A stretch of 64,000 nucleotides of DNA from Nisaea sp. (GTDB lineage Bacteria > Pseudomonadota > Alphaproteobacteria > Thalassobaculales > Thalassobaculaceae), in NCBI RefSeq assembly GCF_017640745.1, contig NZ_JAEPQA010000001.1, positions 82,852-146,851 on the forward strand. Reading direction: 5' to 3'. This document shows, in pieces, positions 26,422 through 35,620 of the stretch; positions within the stretch are counted from its first letter, which is position 1; every line of letters starts with the position of its first letter. A model generated the notes under the pieces. That model made no database searches, was not told the DNA's origin, and saw only the letters and a list, made by a program, of their open reading frames with translations. Both the position numbers and the translations under genes were made by a program.

Positions 26422-26451
26422 ATCGGCTTCTTCACCATGGCGGAGATACCC

Positions 26452-27549
26452 ATGCGGTCCGTGAAATTCGGCTTGTCGATCCTTGTCAGTCTCTTCTCGC
26501 TCGGCGGATGCGGTGAGCCGGATCCGGTCCGGATCGGCTTCATCGGAGGCCTGGAAGGGCGGGCGTCGGACATCGGGATCGCGTCGCGAAACGCGGTTCA
26601 GCTAGGTGTGGACGAGGTGAATACCGCCGGCGGGATCAACGGTCGAAAGGTCGAGCTCTACGTGCGGGACGATGGTGGGACCGCCGAGGGCGGTGCCGAA
26701 GCGGCGCGGGCTCTGGTCGGCGAAAAGGTCGACGCCATTATCGGCCCCAATCTCAGCGTGGTCGCCAGCGGAATGGTTCCGGTCATCAACGAGGCCGGGA
26801 TCGTCTCGATCTCACCGACGGTCTCCTCCTTGGCCTTCGTCGGGAAGGACGACTATTTCTACAGAATCGGATCCACGACGAGACAATATGCGACCGCTTA
26901 TGCTGACTTCTGCGAGAAGGCCGGCATCAAGCGGATGGCGATGACCCTCGACAAACGCAATGCCGTTTTTTCCGAAAGCTGGCTTGCGGAGTTCCGTGCC
27001 GCGCACGAAGCTCGGGGAGGAGAGGTCATTGCCGCCGTTTCGTTCGATGCCACTGTGAGCGGCGACTTCGCCAGGGTTACGCGCGAGATTCTCGAAACCC
27101 GGCCGGACGCTCTGCTTTTCATCGCAAACGGCGTCGACTCTGCCCAGTTTGCTCAGCAGGTTCGTAAACTGGATCCAGACATCCCTTTTTTCGCGGCGGA
27201 ATGGGCCGCGTCCGAGAGCCTGTTCGAGCTCGGCGGACGGGCAATCGAAGGTCTGATCCTGCTGCAGACATACGATCGCTATGACGATCGAGCGCGATAT
27301 GTGTCTTTTCGGGATGCCTATCGGGATCGATTTCAGGAAGATCCGGGTTTCTCCAGTGTGGCTGCCTATGACGGGCTGACGGCTCTTTTAGCGGCCTTGC
27401 GGTCCGGCAACGAGAACCTGAAAGAAGCGATGGATTCAGTTGGGTCGGTGGAAGGCTTGCAGCAGATCGTTGAGTTTGACGCCTTCGGCGACAGTGAGAG
27501 GCGCCGCGTATTCGTCGAAGCCAGAGACGGCAAGTTCATCCGCAAATGA
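26452..27549 (+). CDS. Periplasmic-binding lipoprotein (LivJ-like) coupled to a histidine kinase
   Basis: This 365-residue protein has the fold of branched-chain amino acid/amide ABC binding proteins (type I, Peripla_BP_6). The start at the ATG at 26452 gives a short signal peptide ending in the lipobox L17-G-G-C20, so it is a lipoprotein anchored in the envelope. Mature motifs are RIGFIGGLEGRASDIGIASRNAVQLGVDEVN and AIIGPNLSVVASGMVPVINEAGI, as read in parts. No permease or ATPase gene is near. Instead its stop overlaps the start of a sensor kinase by four bases (ATGA), so it most likely senses a small ligand and signals through that kinase, in the manner known for LuxP-LuxQ or TorT-TorS. The ligand is unknown. 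An ATG at 26437 is an alternative start. Confidence 0.85.
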   Translation: MRSVKFGLSILVSLFSLGGCGEPDPVRIGFIGGLEGRASDIGIASRNAVQLGVDEVNTAGGINGRKVELYVRDDGGTAEGGAEAARALVGEKVDAIIGPNLSVVASGMVPVINEAGIVSISPTVSSLAFVGKDDYFYRIGSTTRQYATAYADFCEKAGIKRMAMTLDKRNAVFSESWLAEFRAAHEARGGEVIAAVSFDATVSGDFARVTREILETRPDALLFIANGVDSAQFAQQVRKLDPDIPFFAAEWAASESLFELGGRAIEGLILLQTYDRYDDRARYVSFRDAYRDRFQEDPGFSSVAAYDGLTALLAALRSGNENLKEAMDSVGSVEGLQQIVEFDAFGDSERRRVFVEARDGKFIRK

Positions 27550-29507
27550 TCTTCGGCACGGCCTTTTCCCTCAGGTTTGCGCTGACAGGACTCTTCCTGC
27601 TGACCCCGCTGGTGGCGCTGATCATCGTCGGTTCGGTCACACTTGCGGTGCGCCTGCCCCAGATCTCCAAAGAAAACAATGCGATCGCGCGTGCCTCGGC
27701 AGCGGAGATGGCGGCCCGCCTGGAAGAATATCTGACCTCGCTCGAGGACCGGTTGCAGGTGGTGGCTTCCGGGATCGACTCGCTTTCCGGCATTAACAGC
27801 CACGCCATGCTGGAGGCCGCGCGGGGGCACAGTTTCGACGCGATCTATCTCCTCGACACTGGCGGGATTGTACGCGACGCAAGCGTCAGAAACTTCGATC
27901 TCGAATTCACGGTCGAACTTATCGGCACGGATCTCTCGGGCAACAAGCTGTTTCAGGAGACTTCGGCAACTGGGGAAAAGGCATGGAGCGATACGCAGCT
28001 CTCTGCGATCACCGGCATCGTCATGGTCGGTCTGGCCGTCCCGGTTCCGAGTACCGGCCAGGTGATCATCGGCGAGGTTTCGCTCGAACAGATCGTTTCC
28101 ATCAGCCGCTTCAGCAGAAGCAACGAGCAATTGGACCTTTGGATCGTCGACCGACGCGGCGAGATCGTTGCGGATACCAATCCGACCCGCTCCGGCAGGC
28201 GCAATCTTCTGAACGTTCCGATTGTCCGCGCCGGGCTTAACGGTACTCCGATCCCGGATGAGATCTCATTCGACGGTTATGACTATTTCGCCTGGGCAGA
28301 GTTCTCCGAATCACTCGGTTGGCTATTCGTCAGTCGAATTCCGCGCGGGATGGATAATGCGACGACGCGGGAAACTGTCTGGATCGTCGCGATCGGCTTC
28401 ATCGCGACATCGTTGCTCGGCGTGTTGCTCGCACCGCTCTGGGCACAGGCGATGATACGCACGATCAGCTCCGTCATCGATCAGGCGCGGATGATCGCGT
28501 CGGGGAAAACCCCCGAAGCGTGGCCGACCGGGCCAATCAAGGAGTTCAATCAGTTATCGGACGATCTGGAAGCGATGGCCAACGCATTGGTCAGTCGCGA
28601 GAAGGCGCTCAAGGAAATCAACGAAGAGCTTGAGAACCGGGTACGGAACAGAACGCGAGACCTCGCAGCTTCGAATGCCGAACTGTCTCAGGCACTGGAC
28701 CATCTCCGCAAGACACAGGGAGAACTTGTCGAGTCGGAGAGGCTTGCCGCCCTCGGTCGCCTCGTCGCCGGCGTGGCGCATGAACTGAACACACCGCTCG
28801 GGAACAGCAAGCTCAGTCTGTCGGCGCAGATCCACGAGATCGAAAACTTCTCTCGCCTTATGAACTCGGGACTGAAGAAGTCCGATCTGACTGGTTTCGT
28901 GGATAGAATGCGCCAAGGAACATCCGTCGCCGAGATGAATGTCGAGCGTGCCTGCAATCTCGTGAGCAGTTTCAAGCAGGTCGCTGTCGATCGCACGGCC
29001 TCCTACAGACGGGTCTTCAGGCTCAACGACCTGATCAGCGGAACCGTGCTCACGCTGCAGCCTTCGATCAGCAAGTCGATCAACGTCGTTGTCGAGGAGA
29101 TCCCGGCAAAGATCGAACTCGACAGCTATCCGGGAGAATTCGGGCAGGTCATAACGAACCTCGTCGACAATGCGGTAAAGCATGCTTTCCCCGACGGAGC
29201 AGGAACCGTGCGCCTGACCGTATACGAGCCGGATTCGAAATCGATATCCGTGACTATCGAGGACGACGGGATCGGCATGACGGAAGACATCGCCGATCAG
29301 ATCTTCAACCCGTTCTTCACCACAAAATTCGGCCAGGGCGGAACGGGTCTCGGTTTGCACATCTCCTACAACGCCGTGGCCAATGTCCTTGGTGGCACCT
29401 TGTCGGTGACCAGCGCACCGGGAACCGGTAGCGCTTTTAAGATCACGGTGCCGCTCGTCGCGCCGCAACCGGATACCGAGTCCGAGACTGTCAGGGAAAC
29501 GTCCTAG
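27546..29507 (+). CDS. Membrane sensor histidine kinase (Cache-HAMP-HisKA-HATPase)
   Basis: This 653-residue kinase has a first membrane segment at residues 12-36, a periplasmic region of about 240 residues with a Cache-like strand pattern (FDAIYLLDTGGIVRDASV; LWIVDRRGEIVADT), and a second membrane segment at 278-300. A HAMP-like linker and a coiled coil (345-400) follow. The phospho-acceptor is H412 in VAHELNTPLGNSK. The ATPase domain shows the N box NLVDNAVKHAF, the G1 box DDGIGM, the F box NPFFTTKFGQGGTGLGL and G2. There is no receiver domain, and no response regulator gene lies nearby, so the partner is encoded elsewhere. Translational coupling to the binding-lipoprotein gene (four-base overlap) suggests a fixed sensor complex. 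Confidence 0.93.
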   Translation: MIFGTAFSLRFALTGLFLLTPLVALIIVGSVTLAVRLPQISKENNAIARASAAEMAARLEEYLTSLEDRLQVVASGIDSLSGINSHAMLEAARGHSFDAIYLLDTGGIVRDASVRNFDLEFTVELIGTDLSGNKLFQETSATGEKAWSDTQLSAITGIVMVGLAVPVPSTGQVIIGEVSLEQIVSISRFSRSNEQLDLWIVDRRGEIVADTNPTRSGRRNLLNVPIVRAGLNGTPIPDEISFDGYDYFAWAEFSESLGWLFVSRIPRGMDNATTRETVWIVAIGFIATSLLGVLLAPLWAQAMIRTISSVIDQARMIASGKTPEAWPTGPIKEFNQLSDDLEAMANALVSREKALKEINEELENRVRNRTRDLAASNAELSQALDHLRKTQGELVESERLAALGRLVAGVAHELNTPLGNSKLSLSAQIHEIENFSRLMNSGLKKSDLTGFVDRMRQGTSVAEMNVERACNLVSSFKQVAVDRTASYRRVFRLNDLISGTVLTLQPSISKSINVVVEEIPAKIELDSYPGEFGQVITNLVDNAVKHAFPDGAGTVRLTVYEPDSKSISVTIEDDGIGMTEDIADQIFNPFFTTKFGQGGTGLGLHISYNAVANVLGGTLSVTSAPGTGSAFKITVPLVAPQPDTESETVRETS

Positions 29508-29556
29508 CGCGTTTCCCGTCCCCGGCGGCACATGCACTGCCCTTCGTCGGGTTCCA

Positions 29557-29585
29557 TTGACATTCCAAAGCCAAAAAGCTGAAAT
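29557..29585 (+). promoter_or_regulatory. Strong candidate promoter of the BMP transporter operon
   Basis: A consensus TTGACA (29557-29562) is followed after 17 bases by TGAAAT (29580-29585, four of six consensus bases). Transcription would start near 29592, leaving a leader of about 170 bases before the BMP gene. Confidence 0.6.
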
Positions 29586-29591
29586 CCAATT

Positions 29592-29763
29592 GTCACACGC
29601 GATGGCATCGCTGGCCCGGACCCTCGTCCGGGCTCCCCGCAGAAAGGGGCGATGCGCAGAAGAATGCCACGGGTGCGGCGGGAGGATTTGGCAAAAAGAA
29701 ACTGAGCTCAATGTGACCGGAGGGGTCCGGATCACAGGCCGTTTCGCTTTTCGGGGGACTGAC
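29592..29763 (+). ncRNA. Structured 5' leader, candidate riboregulator of the BMP operon
   Basis: The leader holds several pairings. (a) GCATCGC (29605-29611) pairs perfectly with GCGATGC (29649-29655), enclosing two hairpins: GCCCGGAC/GTCCGGGC (29614-29621 and 29626-29633) and CCC/GGG (29636-29638 and 29646-29648). This gives a three-way junction. (b) The same GCATCGC can pair locally with GCGAT (29599-29603), a competing fold. (c) TGCCA (29665-29669) pairs with TGGCA (29689-29693). (d) TGTGACCGGA (29712-29721) pairs with TCCGG-A-TCACA (29726-29736). The ribosome site GGGGGA follows at 29753-29758. It matches no riboswitch class I can name. The fold was made by eye in GC-rich DNA, so it is tentative. 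Confidence 0.4.
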
Positions 29764-30768
29764 ATGACTTTCATTTCGCGCCGCCAGGCTCTGACCACGC
29801 TGGCCGCTCTCAGCGCCATTTCCATGCTGCCGGTGACGGCGAACGCCGCCGACAAGATCAAGGTCGCGGGCATCTACACCCAGCCGATCCAGCAGAAGTG
29901 GGACGCCCGCCTGCACCAGGGGCTCGAAGCCGCAAAGGCCGCGGGCAAGATCGAGTATTCCTATTCGGAGAAGGTCTCCAACACCGATTATATCCGCGTG
30001 CTGCGCGAATATGCCGAAAGCGGTGTCCAGCTGATCGTCGGCGAGGCCTTCGGCATCAGCCGCGAGGCGCGCAAGGTGGCGGACGAGTATCCGAATGTCG
30101 CCTTCCTGATGGGCGATCCCTTCAAGCCCCACGGCAGCAACTTCTCGGTCTTCGACAACTACATTCACGAGCCCTGCTACCTGATGGGCATCATCGCCGG
30201 GCATATGACCAAGTCCAAGAAGATCGGCATGGTCGGCGGTTATCCGATCGGCGAGGTGAACCGGCTGTTCCACGCCTTCATGAACGGCGCCCGTTCGGTT
30301 AACCCGGACATTCAGTTCAAGGTCACCTTCATCGGCTCCTGGTACGACCCGCCGAAAGCCAAGGAAGCCGCCTTCGCGCAGATCGAGGCCGGCGTCGACG
30401 TGCTCTATGCCGAGCGTGCGGGCGTGGTCGACGCGGCGCGCGAAAAGGGCATCATCGCCTTCGGGAACGTGAACGACATGAACAAGGAGGAGAACGGCAC
30501 CAATGTCGTCGTGACCTCCGCGCTCTGGCACATGGAAGAAGCCATTGCTCATGCCATCGACCTTGTGAAGGCCGGCAATTTCAAGGCCGAGGATTACAAG
30601 GAATGGACGATGATGCAGAAGGGCGGCGCCAGCCTCGCGCCTTATTATGAGTTCGAGGACAAGATCCCGGCTGAAGCGAAGGCCAAGGTCGAAGAGCTGA
30701 AGGCGAAGATCCTCTCCGGCGAGTTCGTGGTCGAGATCAACGACGAAGAGCCGAAATCGACCTTCTGA
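29764..30768 (+). CDS. BMP family ABC transporter substrate-binding protein
   Basis: This 334-residue periplasmic binding protein belongs to the basic membrane protein (BMP/PnrA) family, which binds purine nucleosides or nucleobases for an ABC importer. The ATG at 29764 has GGGGGA as ribosome site. The signal peptide MTFISRRQALTTLAALSAIS carries a twin-arginine pair and a cleavage site after TANAA, so Tat export is possible. The mature protein starts DKIKVAGIYTQPIQQKWD and shows the BMP segments GFGISREARKVADEYPNVAFLMGD-like (here EAFGISREARKVADEYPNVA) and KKIGMVGGYPIGEVNR. The longer frame back to 29557 covers the promoter and leader and is not used. It is the first gene of a five-gene unit with the ATPase, two permeases and a deaminase. 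Confidence 0.93.
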   Translation: MTFISRRQALTTLAALSAISMLPVTANAADKIKVAGIYTQPIQQKWDARLHQGLEAAKAAGKIEYSYSEKVSNTDYIRVLREYAESGVQLIVGEAFGISREARKVADEYPNVAFLMGDPFKPHGSNFSVFDNYIHEPCYLMGIIAGHMTKSKKIGMVGGYPIGEVNRLFHAFMNGARSVNPDIQFKVTFIGSWYDPPKAKEAAFAQIEAGVDVLYAERAGVVDAAREKGIIAFGNVNDMNKEENGTNVVVTSALWHMEEAIAHAIDLVKAGNFKAEDYKEWTMMQKGGASLAPYYEFEDKIPAEAKAKVEELKAKILSGEFVVEINDEEPKSTF

Positions 30769-30788: not shown

Positions 30789-32324
30789 GTGACTGTAAAA
30801 ACCGGTGACGTGACGCCCCTGCTGAGCTTCAGGGGCGTCACCAAGCGTTTCGGCCCGCTGACGGCGAACGACGCGATCTCGCTCGACCTGAAGGCAGGCG
30901 AGGTCCTGGCGTTGCTTGGCGAAAACGGTGCCGGCAAGACCACGCTGATGAATATCCTCTTCGGCCATTACATGGCGGATGAGGGGGCGATCCTGATCGA
31001 CGGCAATCCGCTGCCGCGGGGCTCGACCGACGCCGCGATCCATGCCGGGATCGGTATGGTGCATCAGCATTTCACTCTCGCCGAAAACCTTACCGTGCTG
31101 GAAAACATCACGCTCGGGACCGAACCGCTCTTCTCCTGGCGCCGGAACATCCGCGCGGCACGCGAGAAGATCTCCTCCATGGCCGTCGAATTCGGTCTCG
31201 ATGCGGATCCGGACAAACTCGTGGGCGAGCTCTCCGTCGGCGAGCGCCAGCGGGTCGAGATCCTGAAGGCGCTCTACCGCGATGCCCGCATCCTGATCCT
31301 CGACGAGCCGACCGCGGTGCTCACACCGCAGGAATCCGACAGTCTCTTCCAGACCCTGAAGAAACTGACCGCGCGCGGCCTTGCGGTGATCTTCATATCT
31401 CACAAGCTGAACGAGATCCTCAGCCATACCGACCGGGTTGTGGTACTCCGCCGCGGCAAGGTCGCGGGGACGGTGAAAACATCTGATGCCGACCGTGCCG
31501 GTCTGGCTCGGATGATGGTGGGCGAGGAGGTCAAGCGCCCGACCGCTGAGGCGATGGAGCCGGGCGCGCCGGTCGTGCGGCTCGCCGCGGTGTCCTGCAA
31601 GGCCGGATCGGAAGCCCAGAGCCTGAAATCGGTCAGCCTGGAGATACGCGCCCACGAGATCGTCGGGCTTGCCGGGGTTGCAGGCAACGGACAGCGCACG
31701 CTCGCGAGCCTGCTGTCCGGCCTCGCGGTCGCCGACAGCGGCGATGTCGAGATCCTCGGTGCGCCGGGAACGGACGATCCGACAGCGCTGGTCGCACGCG
31801 GTGTTGCCCGTATTCCCGAAGACCGGCATGCGACCGGCGTGGTCGGCGAGATGCCGCTTTGGGAGAACATCATCAGCGAGGAAAGACGGAGTGCGGAGAT
31901 CGCCCGCGCCGGGATCGTCATCGACAAGGGCAGGGCACTTGAGCGCACCCGCAACCTGATCAAGGAATTCGATATCCGCTGCGAAGGACCTGAGGCCGAA
32001 ACCCGTTTGCTTTCAGGCGGTAACATGCAGAAGCTCATCCTCGCGCGGGTTCTGTCGCGCGGGCCGCGCTTCATTCTCGCCAACCAGCCGGTGCGCGGCC
32101 TCGATGAGGGCGCGATCGCCTATGTGCAGCGCCGTTTGCTCGAAGCGCGCAAGGAGGGTGCCGGCATCCTGCTGATCTCCGAGGATCTCGACGAGCTCTT
32201 CGCGCTCAGCGACCGGATCGCCGTCATGTATCACGGCCACCTGTCGCCGGCGCGGCCTGCCTCCGAACTGACTGTCGGCGAGGTCGGATTGATGATGTCC
32301 GGCCAAGGCGCGGAGGCCGCCTGA
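30789..32324 (+). CDS. BMP-type ABC transporter ATP-binding protein (two nucleotide-binding domains)
   Basis: This 511-residue ATPase has two fused ABC domains and drives import through the two permeases that follow. Domain 1 (about residues 10-240) shows Walker A GENGAGKTTL, Q-loop VHQHFTL, signature LSVGERQRVEI and Walker B ILILDEPTAVL. Domain 2 (about 260-500) has the degenerate Walker A GVAGNGQRTL normal for this family, signature LSGGNMQKLILARVL, and ILANQPVRGLD in place of the usual DEPT, also typical of nucleoside importers of the BMP/NupO type. The GTG start lies 20 bases after the binding-protein gene. Its stop shares one base with the next start (TGATG), so translation is coupled. 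Confidence 0.93.
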   Translation: MTVKTGDVTPLLSFRGVTKRFGPLTANDAISLDLKAGEVLALLGENGAGKTTLMNILFGHYMADEGAILIDGNPLPRGSTDAAIHAGIGMVHQHFTLAENLTVLENITLGTEPLFSWRRNIRAAREKISSMAVEFGLDADPDKLVGELSVGERQRVEILKALYRDARILILDEPTAVLTPQESDSLFQTLKKLTARGLAVIFISHKLNEILSHTDRVVVLRRGKVAGTVKTSDADRAGLARMMVGEEVKRPTAEAMEPGAPVVRLAAVSCKAGSEAQSLKSVSLEIRAHEIVGLAGVAGNGQRTLASLLSGLAVADSGDVEILGAPGTDDPTALVARGVARIPEDRHATGVVGEMPLWENIISEERRSAEIARAGIVIDKGRALERTRNLIKEFDIRCEGPEAETRLLSGGNMQKLILARVLSRGPRFILANQPVRGLDEGAIAYVQRRLLEARKEGAGILLISEDLDELFALSDRIAVMYHGHLSPARPASELTVGEVGLMMSGQGAEAA

Positions 32325-33373
32325 TGCGCATCGAGGCACGGCAGCAGGTCGAGGTCTGGCGCATCGTTCTGGCGCCAATTCTCGCCGTCCTGGCGGCTCT
32401 GGTACTCGGTGCCGGACTGATCCTCTGGGCAGGAGAGGCGGTGTTCGCCTCCTACTGGGCGCTGCTGAAAGGCGCTCTCGGGTCGTCCTTCGCGATCAAC
32501 GAGACCCTCACCCGGACCACGCCGCTGATCTTCACCGGCCTTGCCGCCGCCGTCGCCTTCCGCGCCAAGTTCTACAATATCGGTGCCGAGGGGCAGCTCT
32601 ATTGCGGGGCGCTCGCCGCCACCTTCTTCGGAACCGGTCTCGTCGGACTGCCGCCTTTCCTGATGATTCCCTTCCTGATGCTGGTGGGCGCGATCGCGGG
32701 CGGTGCCATCCTGATCGTGCCGGTGCTGCTGAAGACCCACATGAAGGTCGACGAGGTGGTGACGACACTACTGCTGAACTTCGTCATCCTGCTGCTCGTC
32801 GGCTACCTGCTCGAAGGCCCCTGGAAGGACCCGATGTCGCTTGGCTGGCCACAGGCCGCACCGATCGTGGACGAGGGGATCTGGCCGCCGCTGCTTGCCA
32901 AGGGACGCCTGCACCTCGGCTTCGTCTTCGCGCTGATCGCGGCCGCGCTTGCCTGGGCGCTCATGCGCTTCACGGTCTGGGGCTACGAGATCCGCGCCGT
33001 CGGTCTCAATGCGTCCGCCGCCGGTTTCGCCGGGATCGGCGTCAATGCGACGGTGATCCGCACCGCGCTGATCTCCGGCGGTCTTGCCGGTCTCGCCGGT
33101 GTGAGCGAGGTCGCGGGGCTCAAGGGGTACCTCACGCTCGATCTCTCACCTGGCTTCGGCTATGCGGGCATCGCCGTCGCCATGCTCGCGCAGCTGCATC
33201 CGCTCGGTGTCATCCTCTCCGCCTTCTTCATCTCGGCGGTCTATGTCGGGGCCGACGCGATGAGCCGGACCACGGATATCCCGACCTATATCGCGGACGT
33301 GCTCGTCGGCCTTTCGGTCCTCACCATTCTGGTCAGCGTCATGCTCACCCGCTACCGTATCCGCTGGAGCTGA
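32324..33373 (+). CDS. BMP-type ABC transporter permease (first)
   Basis: This is an inner-membrane permease of 349 residues of the BPD_transp_2 family used by nucleoside/BMP importers. About ten hydrophobic segments are visible, starting with IVLAPILAVLAALVLGAGLILW at residues 14-35. Family motifs are the RTTPLIFTGLAAAVAFRAKFYNIGAEGQLY block near 65-95 and GYEIRAVGLNASAAGFAGI near 220, which couples to the ATPase. It begins in the stop codon of the ATPase gene and ends four bases before the second permease. It is the larger partner of a heterodimeric channel. Confidence 0.92.
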   Translation: MRIEARQQVEVWRIVLAPILAVLAALVLGAGLILWAGEAVFASYWALLKGALGSSFAINETLTRTTPLIFTGLAAAVAFRAKFYNIGAEGQLYCGALAATFFGTGLVGLPPFLMIPFLMLVGAIAGGAILIVPVLLKTHMKVDEVVTTLLLNFVILLLVGYLLEGPWKDPMSLGWPQAAPIVDEGIWPPLLAKGRLHLGFVFALIAAALAWALMRFTVWGYEIRAVGLNASAAGFAGIGVNATVIRTALISGGLAGLAGVSEVAGLKGYLTLDLSPGFGYAGIAVAMLAQLHPLGVILSAFFISAVYVGADAMSRTTDIPTYIADVLVGLSVLTILVSVMLTRYRIRWS

Positions 33374-33377
33374 GGCG

Positions 33378-34328
33378 ATGATCGGCGACCTGCTCGAAAT
33401 CCTCCTTACCGCCGGCTTCTGGGCCGCCACCATCCGTATCGTCAGTCCGCTCATCCTCGGCACCCTCGGAGAGCTGATCTGCGAGCGGGCAGGGGTGCTC
33501 AATCTCGGCATCGAGGGCATCATGACGATGGGTGCGATGGCCGGATGGATGTGGGTCTACCAGGGCGGAGACCTATGGGGAGGGATCGTCTTCGCCGCCT
33601 TCATCGGCGCGCTGTTCGGTATGTTTCACGCGGGTTTCACGGTCTATCTGGGGCTGTCCCAGCACGTGACCGGCATCGGCATCACGCTCTTTGCCTCCTC
33701 GCTCAGCTACTATGTCTTCCGCATGCTGCTGCCGACCGCGACGACCCCTCCGAAGATCACGCCCTTCCAGCCCTTCGCGGTCCCGGTCCTCTCCGACATC
33801 CCGGTGATCGGCGAGGCGCTCTTCACCCAGACGCCGCTGACCTACCTGGCCCTGCTCTCCGTTCCCGCCGTCTGGTACGTGCTCGAGCGGACGCCCCTCG
33901 GCCTCGCCGTCCGCATGGCGGGGGAGAACCCGGTCGCGGTCGAGAGCCAGGGCATCGACGTGCTGGTGGTCCGTACCGGCGCTGTCATGGTCGGCAGCGC
34001 CTTCATGGCGATCGGCGGCGCCTTCATCACCATGAGCGCTTTCGACGCCTTCTATTTCGGCATGATCAACGGCCGCGGCTGGATCTGCGTCGCGCTGGTG
34101 ATCTTCGCCTCCTGGCGGCCCGGAAAGGCGCTGCTCGGCGCGCTGCTCTTCGCCGGGCTCGACGCGCTGCAGGTCCGCGCGCAGCAGCTTGCCGGCGCCC
34201 AGATCCCCTACCAGTTCTTCCTTATGGCCCCGTACCTGCTCTCCATCGCCGCCATGGTGGTGATGGCGCGGCGGGCACGCTATCCGAAGGCGCTGCTGGT
34301 GCCGTTCCGGCGCGGCGACCGGGTCTGA
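33378..34328 (+). CDS. BMP-type ABC transporter permease (second)
   Basis: This is the second inner-membrane permease of the importer, 316 residues with eight or more hydrophobic segments. The start MIGDLLEILLTAGFWAATIRI and the motif PLILGTLGELICERAGVLNLGIEGIM near residue 30 are diagnostic for the short permease of BMP/nucleoside systems. AVRMAGENPVAVESQGI near 180 is the cytoplasmic coupling loop. It pairs with the preceding permease. It lies between the larger permease and the deaminase gene, 17 bases before the latter, so import and first metabolic step are encoded together. Confidence 0.92.
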   Translation: MIGDLLEILLTAGFWAATIRIVSPLILGTLGELICERAGVLNLGIEGIMTMGAMAGWMWVYQGGDLWGGIVFAAFIGALFGMFHAGFTVYLGLSQHVTGIGITLFASSLSYYVFRMLLPTATTPPKITPFQPFAVPVLSDIPVIGEALFTQTPLTYLALLSVPAVWYVLERTPLGLAVRMAGENPVAVESQGIDVLVVRTGAVMVGSAFMAIGGAFITMSAFDAFYFGMINGRGWICVALVIFASWRPGKALLGALLFAGLDALQVRAQQLAGAQIPYQFFLMAPYLLSIAAMVVMARRARYPKALLVPFRRGDRV

Positions 34329-34345: not shown

Positions 34346-35620
34346 ATGCTCGATATCCTGATTACCAACGCAACGCTCCCCGACGGGCGCACGGGCCAGT
34401 CCATCGCGATCGCGGGCGGGAAGATCCTTGAGGTCGGCCTGAACGTGACCGGAGCGGCCGGCCGGACCATCGATGCGGGCGGCTGCCTCGTGACGCCGCC
34501 CTTCATCGACCCGCATTTCCATCTCGATTCCACCCTCAGTCTCGGGGAACCGCGCCTCAACCAGTCGGGCACGCTGCTCGAGGGCATCCAGCTCTGGGGC
34601 GAACTGAAGCCGCATCTGACCGGTGACGCGATCAAGGACCGGGTGCGGGAGCTTGCCCGCTGGTCCATCGCCAAGGGGACGCTCGCGATCCGCAGCCATG
34701 TCGATACCTCGGACCCGCGCATGATCAATGTCGACGCTCTGATCGAGGTCCGTGAGGAGCTGAAGCCCTATATCGACATCCAGCTCGTCGCCTTCCCGCA
34801 GGACGGCTACTTCCGCTCCGCCGGGAACGTGGAGAACGTCGCGCGGGCGCTCGACAAGGGGGTCGACGTGGTCGGCGGCATCCCGCATTTCGAGCGCACG
34901 ATGGAAGACGGCGCCCGCTCTGTCCGCGCGCTCTGCGAGCTGGCGGCGGACCGCGGTCTCCGCGTCGACATGCATTGCGACGAAACGGACGATCCGATGT
35001 CGCGCCATATCGAGACACTGACGGCGGAGACCAGGCGCCTCGGGCTCGAGGGCAGGGTGGCCGGGTCGCACCTGACCTCGATGCATTCGATGGACAATTA
35101 CTACGTCTCGAAGCTGCTGCCGCTGATGGCGGAGAGCGAGATCCATGCAATCCCGAACCCGCTCATCAACATCACCCTGCAGGGACGCCACGACACCTAT
35201 CCGAAGCGCCGCGGCATGACCCGGGTGAAGGAGATGACCGCGCAGGGCATCAACGTCGCCCTCGGTCACGACTGCGTCATGGATCCCTGGTACAGCCTCG
35301 GCAGCCACGACATGCTGGAGGTCGCCCATATGGCGGTGCATGTCGGGCAGATGACCGGCGTCGAGGAGATGAAGGCGATGTTCGCCGCCGTGACCGAGAA
35401 CTCGGCAAAGGCGATGGGCCTCGAAGGCTACGGCATCGCCAAGGGCTGCAATGCCGATCTCGTCATTCTCCAGGCGGGCGATCCGATGGAGGCCATCCGC
35501 CTGAAGCCGAACCGCCTATTCGTGCTCCGCCGCGGCAAGGTGATCGCCGAGGCCCCGCCGCAGATGAGCACCGTTTCGATCGGTAGCGAAAGCTACAGCG
35601 TCGATTTCCGCCGCGCCTAG
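34346..35620 (+). CDS. codA: Cytosine deaminase-like amidohydrolase
   Basis: This metal-dependent amidohydrolase of 424 residues resembles E. coli CodA, which turns cytosine into uracil and ammonia and also accepts isoguanine-type bases. Metal and catalytic residues are all in place: FIDPHFHLD (two His) near residue 55, HCDET (His plus catalytic Glu) near 209, SHLTSMHS (His) near 240 and LGHDCVMDPWYSLG near 305, where the Asp after GHDCVM corresponds to the CodA metal/base region. It is the last gene of the BMP importer unit, 17 bases after the second permease, which points to salvage of an imported nucleobase. Related pterin or triazine deaminases cannot be excluded. Its stop overlaps the convergent aminotransferase. 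Confidence 0.88.
   Translation: MLDILITNATLPDGRTGQSIAIAGGKILEVGLNVTGAAGRTIDAGGCLVTPPFIDPHFHLDSTLSLGEPRLNQSGTLLEGIQLWGELKPHLTGDAIKDRVRELARWSIAKGTLAIRSHVDTSDPRMINVDALIEVREELKPYIDIQLVAFPQDGYFRSAGNVENVARALDKGVDVVGGIPHFERTMEDGARSVRALCELAADRGLRVDMHCDETDDPMSRHIETLTAETRRLGLEGRVAGSHLTSMHSMDNYYVSKLLPLMAESEIHAIPNPLINITLQGRHDTYPKRRGMTRVKEMTAQGINVALGHDCVMDPWYSLGSHDMLEVAHMAVHVGQMTGVEEMKAMFAAVTENSAKAMGLEGYGIAKGCNADLVILQAGDPMEAIRLKPNRLFVLRRGKVIAEAPPQMSTVSIGSESYSVDFRRA

Follow-up and report, generated by a model that had tools for sequence, protein, structure and literature searches.

A probably functional, genus-specific structured leader precedes the Bmp importer/deaminase operon of Nisaea

Does the long stretch in front of a putative nucleobase-importer operon of Nisaea sp. 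hold a regulatory RNA and, if so, of what kind? It lies in the window (the whole 64,000 nucleotides of DNA that were analysed) between a sensor-kinase gene, which ends at 29507, and the operon's start codon, ATG 29764. An earlier note on this DNA had described a promoter-like TTGACA-17-TGAAAT (29557-29585, + strand) followed by some 170 bases of leader up to ATG 29764, and both are present as described. The two hexamers (29557-29562 and 29580-29585) were invariant in all five Nisaea genomes compared, and 24-27 of the 29 positions of the promoter stretch were identical between the window and the other four. TGAAAT matches TATAAT at four of six positions and breaks the scanner's rule of an A at position 2; therefore, a consensus promoter scan of 29480-29800 listed no promoter. 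No sigma-54 sites were seen by eye. From the hexamer spacing, transcription is predicted to start at about 29592.

The operon, on the + strand, encodes a Bmp/PnrA-like substrate-binding protein (29764-30768; PF02608, 8.9e-39), an ABC ATPase with two ATPase domains (30789-32324; PF00005, two stretches), two ABC permeases (32324-33373, PF02653, 5.4e-34; 33378-34328, PF02653, 2e-27), and a cytosine-deaminase-family amidohydrolase (34358-35620; NF005748, 751 bits, cut-off 438). Of 80 ortholog loci, 78 contain the ATPase. At least 50 have the amidohydrolase, 4.5-5.3 kb downstream of their Bmp match, a lower bound as several of the 80 contigs end short of the codA position. Matches to preA (four of the 80 loci) and rutR (five of the 80), some of them partial, were also found. 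Pyrimidine bases or nucleosides are a fair guess for the operon's substrate. The reading of these genes as a nucleobase operon is likewise a fair guess from the genes, the RutR-type boxes described below and the preA/rutR neighbours.

By blastn, the leader was found in five of 61 genomes, every one of them Nisaea: the window's genome (G000), G001, G004, N. denitrificans (L005/L006) and N. nitritireducens (L004/L007). The last two have identical leaders, which leaves four distinct sequences. In an alignment of the five, conservation begins at TTGACA. Two blocks stand out when the window is compared with N. denitrificans: 29592-29610 and 29656-29693 were together identical at 52 of 57 positions, compared with 19 of the 45 positions between them and seven of 18 in the linker after the second block (52/57 versus 26/63, P = 4e-9); the operon's fourfold-degenerate sites were identical at 538 of 1007 (P = 3.5e-9 against the blocks). 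The window and G001 gave 55/57 versus 41/63 (P = 9e-6), and the window and its nearest genome, G004, gave 56/57 versus 56/63, which is not significant (P = 0.06). Since block identity exceeds that of both the flanking stretches and the fourfold sites, the blocks are, on these comparisons, under selection; identity in the stretch between them is close to that of the fourfold sites. The second block (+ strand, 35 of 38 positions identical to N. denitrificans) consists of GCAGAAGA (29656-29663), the 3′ strand of the stem described below (29664-29679), and the invariant GGGAGGATTTGGCA (29680-29693). Downstream, identity to N. denitrificans was 19 of 26 positions in the region of a further hairpin, P4, and 22 of 27 in the last positions before the start codon, where the ribosome-binding site GGGGGA (29753-29758, + strand) is invariant in all five genomes and lies five bases before ATG 29764. 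The purine run of GGGAGGATTTGGCA itself resembles a ribosome site, and has no usable start codon at normal spacing.

The two blocks can be joined by a long imperfect stem, P1. Its 5′ strand (GTC.CAC.CG.TGGCAT in DNA letters; 29592-29608, + strand) begins at the hexamer-predicted +1 and overlaps the invariant palindrome CGATGGCATCG (29600-29610); written for the genus, GUC.A.CAY.R.CG.A.UGGCAU pairs with AUGCCA.CG.G.RUG.M.GRC (29664-29679). All 14 pairs form in the four distinct sequences (100% of cells). Twelve are invariant, pair 9-84 is C-G in two sequences and U-A in two and is thus compensatory, and pair 4-89 is U-G or U-A, a one-sided change. The duplex of the two P1 blocks goes beyond chance: in the five genomes, 4, 2, 10, 5 and 12 of 2000 dinucleotide shuffles did as well, as did 20-47 of 2000 mononucleotide shuffles. 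P1 does not explain the conservation of the tail at 29680-29693. A variable interior inside a conserved stem suits a constraint on RNA better than one on DNA or protein.

RNAalifold recovered P1 unprompted, except in ending at pair 18-76; its covariation term (+0.32) gave no support and it drew the interior otherwise than the hairpins P2 and P3 given below. The whole structure paired 95.3% of cells against 31-47% when slid along the alignment, a control that a structure derived from the same sequences tends to win anyway. Both sides had changed in two pairs of the whole structure, where shuffles averaged 1.1 (98 of 500 were as high), and 23 of 500 shuffles reached the covariation score and the cells paired. 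Significance is out of reach for covariation here, as a single genus supplies only four distinct sequences. Fold energies were uneven, with whole-leader z-scores of -1.5, +0.6, -0.8, -3.1 and -3.7; the two low values belong to the two genomes with identical leaders, and the other three are unremarkable. When folded freely, the G001 leader had no P1 and paired UCCCC with the ribosome site instead, and in the window the upper P1 pairs had a probability of 0.40, below the 0.52 of a competing inner stem.

This inner stem was the centre of the earlier note, which had proposed that GCATCGC (29605-29611) pairs with GCGATGC (29649-29655) around two hairpins, or exclusively with GCGAT (29599-29603) in a local hairpin, as in a switch. 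All three sequences are there, and the minimum-energy fold of the window has the inner stem, although the whole leader is just slightly more stable than shuffled sequence (z = -1.5; 14 of 200 shuffles did as well). As a conserved feature, however, the stem (29605-29655, + strand) did not hold up, being intact in the window's genome only. N. denitrificans and N. nitritireducens lack four of its seven pairs through deletions, and it has a C-A mismatch in G004 and a G-G mismatch in G001; its pairs had probabilities of 0.46-0.53 in the window, and in the other four genomes the probability was 0.00 or the partner was deleted. It lies inside P1 and the two compete for GCAT, so that three upper P1 pairs are displaced. 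The local hairpin has four of five pairs invariant but sits inside the conserved 5′ block, and its probability did not exceed 0.07 in the window or 0.01 in the other Nisaea. The switch between the two is therefore unsupported, as the inner stem is not conserved. What survives of the earlier proposal is a conserved, structured leader with a different fold, in which a long stem closes a variable inner region; conservation fails for the inner stem and is found for the outer stem and P4, each with one compensatory pair. For candidates drawn from single sequences this is a caution: the best-looking stem was not kept by evolution, and the conserved stem encloses it.

Inside P1, two variable hairpins were drawn on the + strand. 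P2 (29613-29634) occurs in the window fold, and its GCCC/GGGC pairing is found in all five genomes, provided that N. denitrificans and N. nitritireducens are moved by one base in the alignment (by eye). P3 (CCCC/GGGG; 29635-29649) has the same pairs in the window, G004 and G001; the aligned N. denitrificans and N. nitritireducens sequences break three of its four pairs and fold others there. Beyond P1, the hairpin P4 (TGTGA-CCGGA-GGGG-TCCGG-A-TCACA; 29712-29736, + strand) folds in isolation in all five and also goes beyond chance, being equalled by 0-1 of 1000 mononucleotide shuffles; its pair 127-144 is A-U, U-A or U-G among Nisaea, and N. denitrificans and N. nitritireducens have its lower stem in a shifted position. 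Two further pairings were considered and not adopted: TGCCA (29665-29669) with TTGGCA (29688-29693), a candidate switch of two invariant strands (pair probability at most 0.04), and a long RNAalifold helix of 29681-29692 with about 29738-29750 (single-sequence probability at most 0.03).

No known RNA family matched the leader above its cut-off. A search of window positions 29300-30000 against Rfam gave six weak matches, all far below cut-off, and the five Nisaea loci gave none at E values up to 1. The best score, to the guanidine-III riboswitch (29602-29655, 17.5 bits where the cut-off is 36, E = 0.35), was rejected as a chance match, being far below cut-off and on the minus strand. No intrinsic terminator was found on the + strand of window positions 29480-29800, in which one terminator-like site lies on the opposite strand. 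A covariance model of the 5′ domain of the leader, R1, trained on Nisaea sequences, matched the window's genome at a single place (of 1721 first-look candidates, 150 were scored), and neither this search nor blastn found other copies there. Among 385 genomes of the class, of which only two have a Nisaea match, R1 gave three matches, i.e. the two Nisaea and G095 (E = 0.031 per genome); ten candidates per genome were scored under strict filters, so weak homologues could escape. The G095 match was discarded as a homologue, since it is not significant over 385 genomes and is not beside a Bmp gene; it adjoins accC-like and aat-like genes (read by eye). Of 87 loci searched with R1 (L003, L006-L085 and L091-L096), only L003, L006 and L007 matched, all of them Nisaea and R1 training sequences; three of the 80 ortholog loci have fewer than 80 bases upstream of the gene. 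The leader thus appears to be genus-specific, with no credible homologue in the 385 class genomes or the non-Nisaea ortholog loci.

In many relatives of Nisaea, a TetR-type operator seems to serve the same operon. A box within three mismatches of TTGACCAnnTGGTCAA, which we take to be the RutR-type consensus, occurs in 36 of 78 ortholog upstream regions, compared with 37 of 1560 shuffles. The 78 regions are 85 loci minus four that were skipped (L001, the window's own; L002, the G004 minus-strand locus; L004 and L005, duplicates of L007 and L006) and three that were too short (L013, L017 and L038). Three of the 78 are Nisaea, so that the count outside the genus is 36 of 75; start codons of the ortholog loci are estimates, and L013 and L020 come from one MAG. 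The result suggests that the Bmp/deaminase operon belongs to a RutR-type regulon in many Proteobacteria. Within 400 bases upstream of the Nisaea operons there is no such box, the best sites having 4-6 mismatches of 14 (window 6; G004, scanned separately from the 78, 4 at -337; G001 6; N. denitrificans 5; N. nitritireducens 5). At the rutR-preA locus, in contrast, all five Nisaea have a box with 1-2 mismatches at the rutR-like gene. The RutR-like TetR gene lies beside preA with the box before it in all five (L104:1323-3558; L106:55-2286), and in the window's genome this locus and the Bmp operon are on different contigs. Nisaea preA is named by NCBIfam (736 bits against a cut-off of 335); the neighbouring protein scores about 226-229 bits against the cut-off of 368 of TIGR03613 in the five Nisaea, and its gene is best called RutR-like only. 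Nisaea thus appears to keep the regulator without a box at the Bmp operon. Two relatives of the same family, L091 (the L037 stretch of Thalassobaculum fulvum) and L092 (the L061 stretch), gave no sign of the leader; the box of L037 has three mismatches, and L061 is outside the list of 36. In E. coli, RutR is described as repressing pyrimidine-use genes, with uracil impairing its binding to DNA (PMC10891134), and the RutR motif is said to differ between taxa (PMC5343134). The Nisaea operon resembles systems under RutR operator control in its putative link to pyrimidine catabolism and in the box before 36 of 78 of its orthologs, and differs from them in lacking the box, which is retained at rutR-preA.

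We consider it somewhat probable that the Bmp importer/deaminase operon of Nisaea has, as its 5′ untranslated region, a genus-specific cis-acting leader RNA; from sequence comparison the leader is real and probably functional and structured. Transcription would start at about 29592, and the first 17 bases would pair with 29664-29679 into the long imperfect stem, closing a fast-evolving inner region, probably of two hairpins, together with the invariant GCAGAAGA. The purine-rich invariant tail and then P4 would precede the ribosome site. The RNA would affect how translation is initiated or how stable the mRNA is, either by itself or by way of a protein or small RNA that binds it; we infer both this effect and such folding in the cell. 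Because the window's coding strand has no intrinsic terminator, such a route is the likelier one. Structured mRNA leaders of narrow spread that bind proteins or small RNAs are a known kind, and the Nisaea leader is like them in serving a single operon, in its narrow spread and in its structured 5′ end. As many orthologs carry a RutR-type operator and the Nisaea operon has none, the leader may take over part of RutR-type control. If it does control the operon, this would be a recent case in which a DNA-bound repressor was replaced or joined by messenger-level control of nucleobase uptake.

The same conservation might act at the DNA level, with the palindrome CGATGGCATCG, at about +9 to +19, as a repressor operator and the remaining conservation due to other causes. 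This is unlikely, though the palindrome is a perfect 5-1-5 repeat, invariant in all five genomes, at a place where repressors act, and many relatives use a TetR-type operator. With up to three mismatches, GTCACAYRCGATGGCATCG has 6-12 matches per genome against 0-1 for the reversed pattern; however, each of the five genomes matches the longer pattern exactly at one place only, the leader, and the palindrome with one mismatch shows no clear enrichment in the window, where it was found eight times against 4.8 expected (15 of 100 shuffles had as many). An operator would also leave unexplained the downstream partner strand, the C-G/U-A exchange and the 38-base block.

A ligand-sensing riboswitch that acts on translation, in which closed P1/P3 would alternate with pairing of CCCC (29635-29638) to GGGGGA and the signal would be a nucleobase or its breakdown product, is a doubtful reading. 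A closed junction with invariant bases ahead of an importer operon would fit it, and the alternative UCCCC/GGGGA pairing is available in the window, G004 and G001, with an ensemble energy 1.7 and 3.2 kcal/mol above that of the P1 fold in the first two and 3.4 kcal/mol below it in G001. In N. denitrificans and N. nitritireducens, however, the alternative is 8.2 kcal/mol worse, and C-runs pair readily with G-runs in G+C-rich leaders; ribosome-site pairing is thus a possible switch, though not a conserved one. Conserved mutually exclusive folds, i.e. an expression platform, were found among the five Nisaea for neither candidate pairing, and, as regards an aptamer-like fold, the outer stem is conserved and the interior is not, in just four distinct sequences. 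The nearest precedent is the NMT1-motif (xanthine/uric acid), described as a proteobacterial leader of purine-related and transporter genes, with a two-stem architecture, conserved junctions and 649 representatives, that also acts at the ribosome site, almost without terminators (PMC7373994). Unlike the NMT1-motif, the Nisaea leader has no Rfam match above cut-off and was found in one genus, at one operon, in the genomes and loci searched. A riboswitch identity is possible but unsupported. A rare genus-restricted riboswitch for a pyrimidine as free base (uracil, cytosine, thymine) or for a catabolite, replacing RutR here, seems most improbable; if true, the same signal would be read by RNA in Nisaea and by protein in relatives. 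The main text of a review of former orphan riboswitches does not include uracil or cytosine (PMC7266159), and literature searches on riboswitches in Nisaea, in BMP-family/cytosine-deaminase contexts or in pyrimidine sensing showed nothing on this leader, going by titles and the opening of abstracts.

Translation of a short upstream frame from ATG 29664 (MPR[V/M]RREDLA...), regulating the operon as a leader peptide, is quite improbable. The frame is open in all five genomes: it runs for 13 codons in the window, and for 32-34 or more in each of the other four. One double change in it is synonymous (CGG/AGA), a change that P1 explains as well (U-G to U-A plus an unpaired position). The first ten codons are alike and then lengths, frames and peptides diverge, so that no conserved short frame for attenuation was found in the five; no good ribosome site was seen by eye, and the frame relative to the gene differs between genomes, both from ATG 29664 and from the first ATG. 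An open reading frame in the window (29557-30768) fuses the leader to the Bmp frame; a coding explanation was rejected, since indels of lengths not divisible by three leave no common frame, and no reading frame from the leader into the gene is common to all Nisaea genomes compared. That there is no RNA function at all, only chance pairing in G+C-rich DNA conserved through the promoter and the ribosome site, is very improbable: fold energies are modest in three of five genomes and a single genus is involved, but conservation drops within the leader and recovers at the second P1 block, well away from both promoter and ribosome site, and the duplex shuffle test favours the P1 blocks.

Upstream of the leader, at 26437-29507, a periplasmic-binding-protein gene (PF13458) overlaps the gene of the sensor kinase, which has a dCache domain. 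N. denitrificans and N. nitritireducens also have this kinase upstream of the operon, at 65% identity; it evolves faster than the operon, whose substrate might be its signal.
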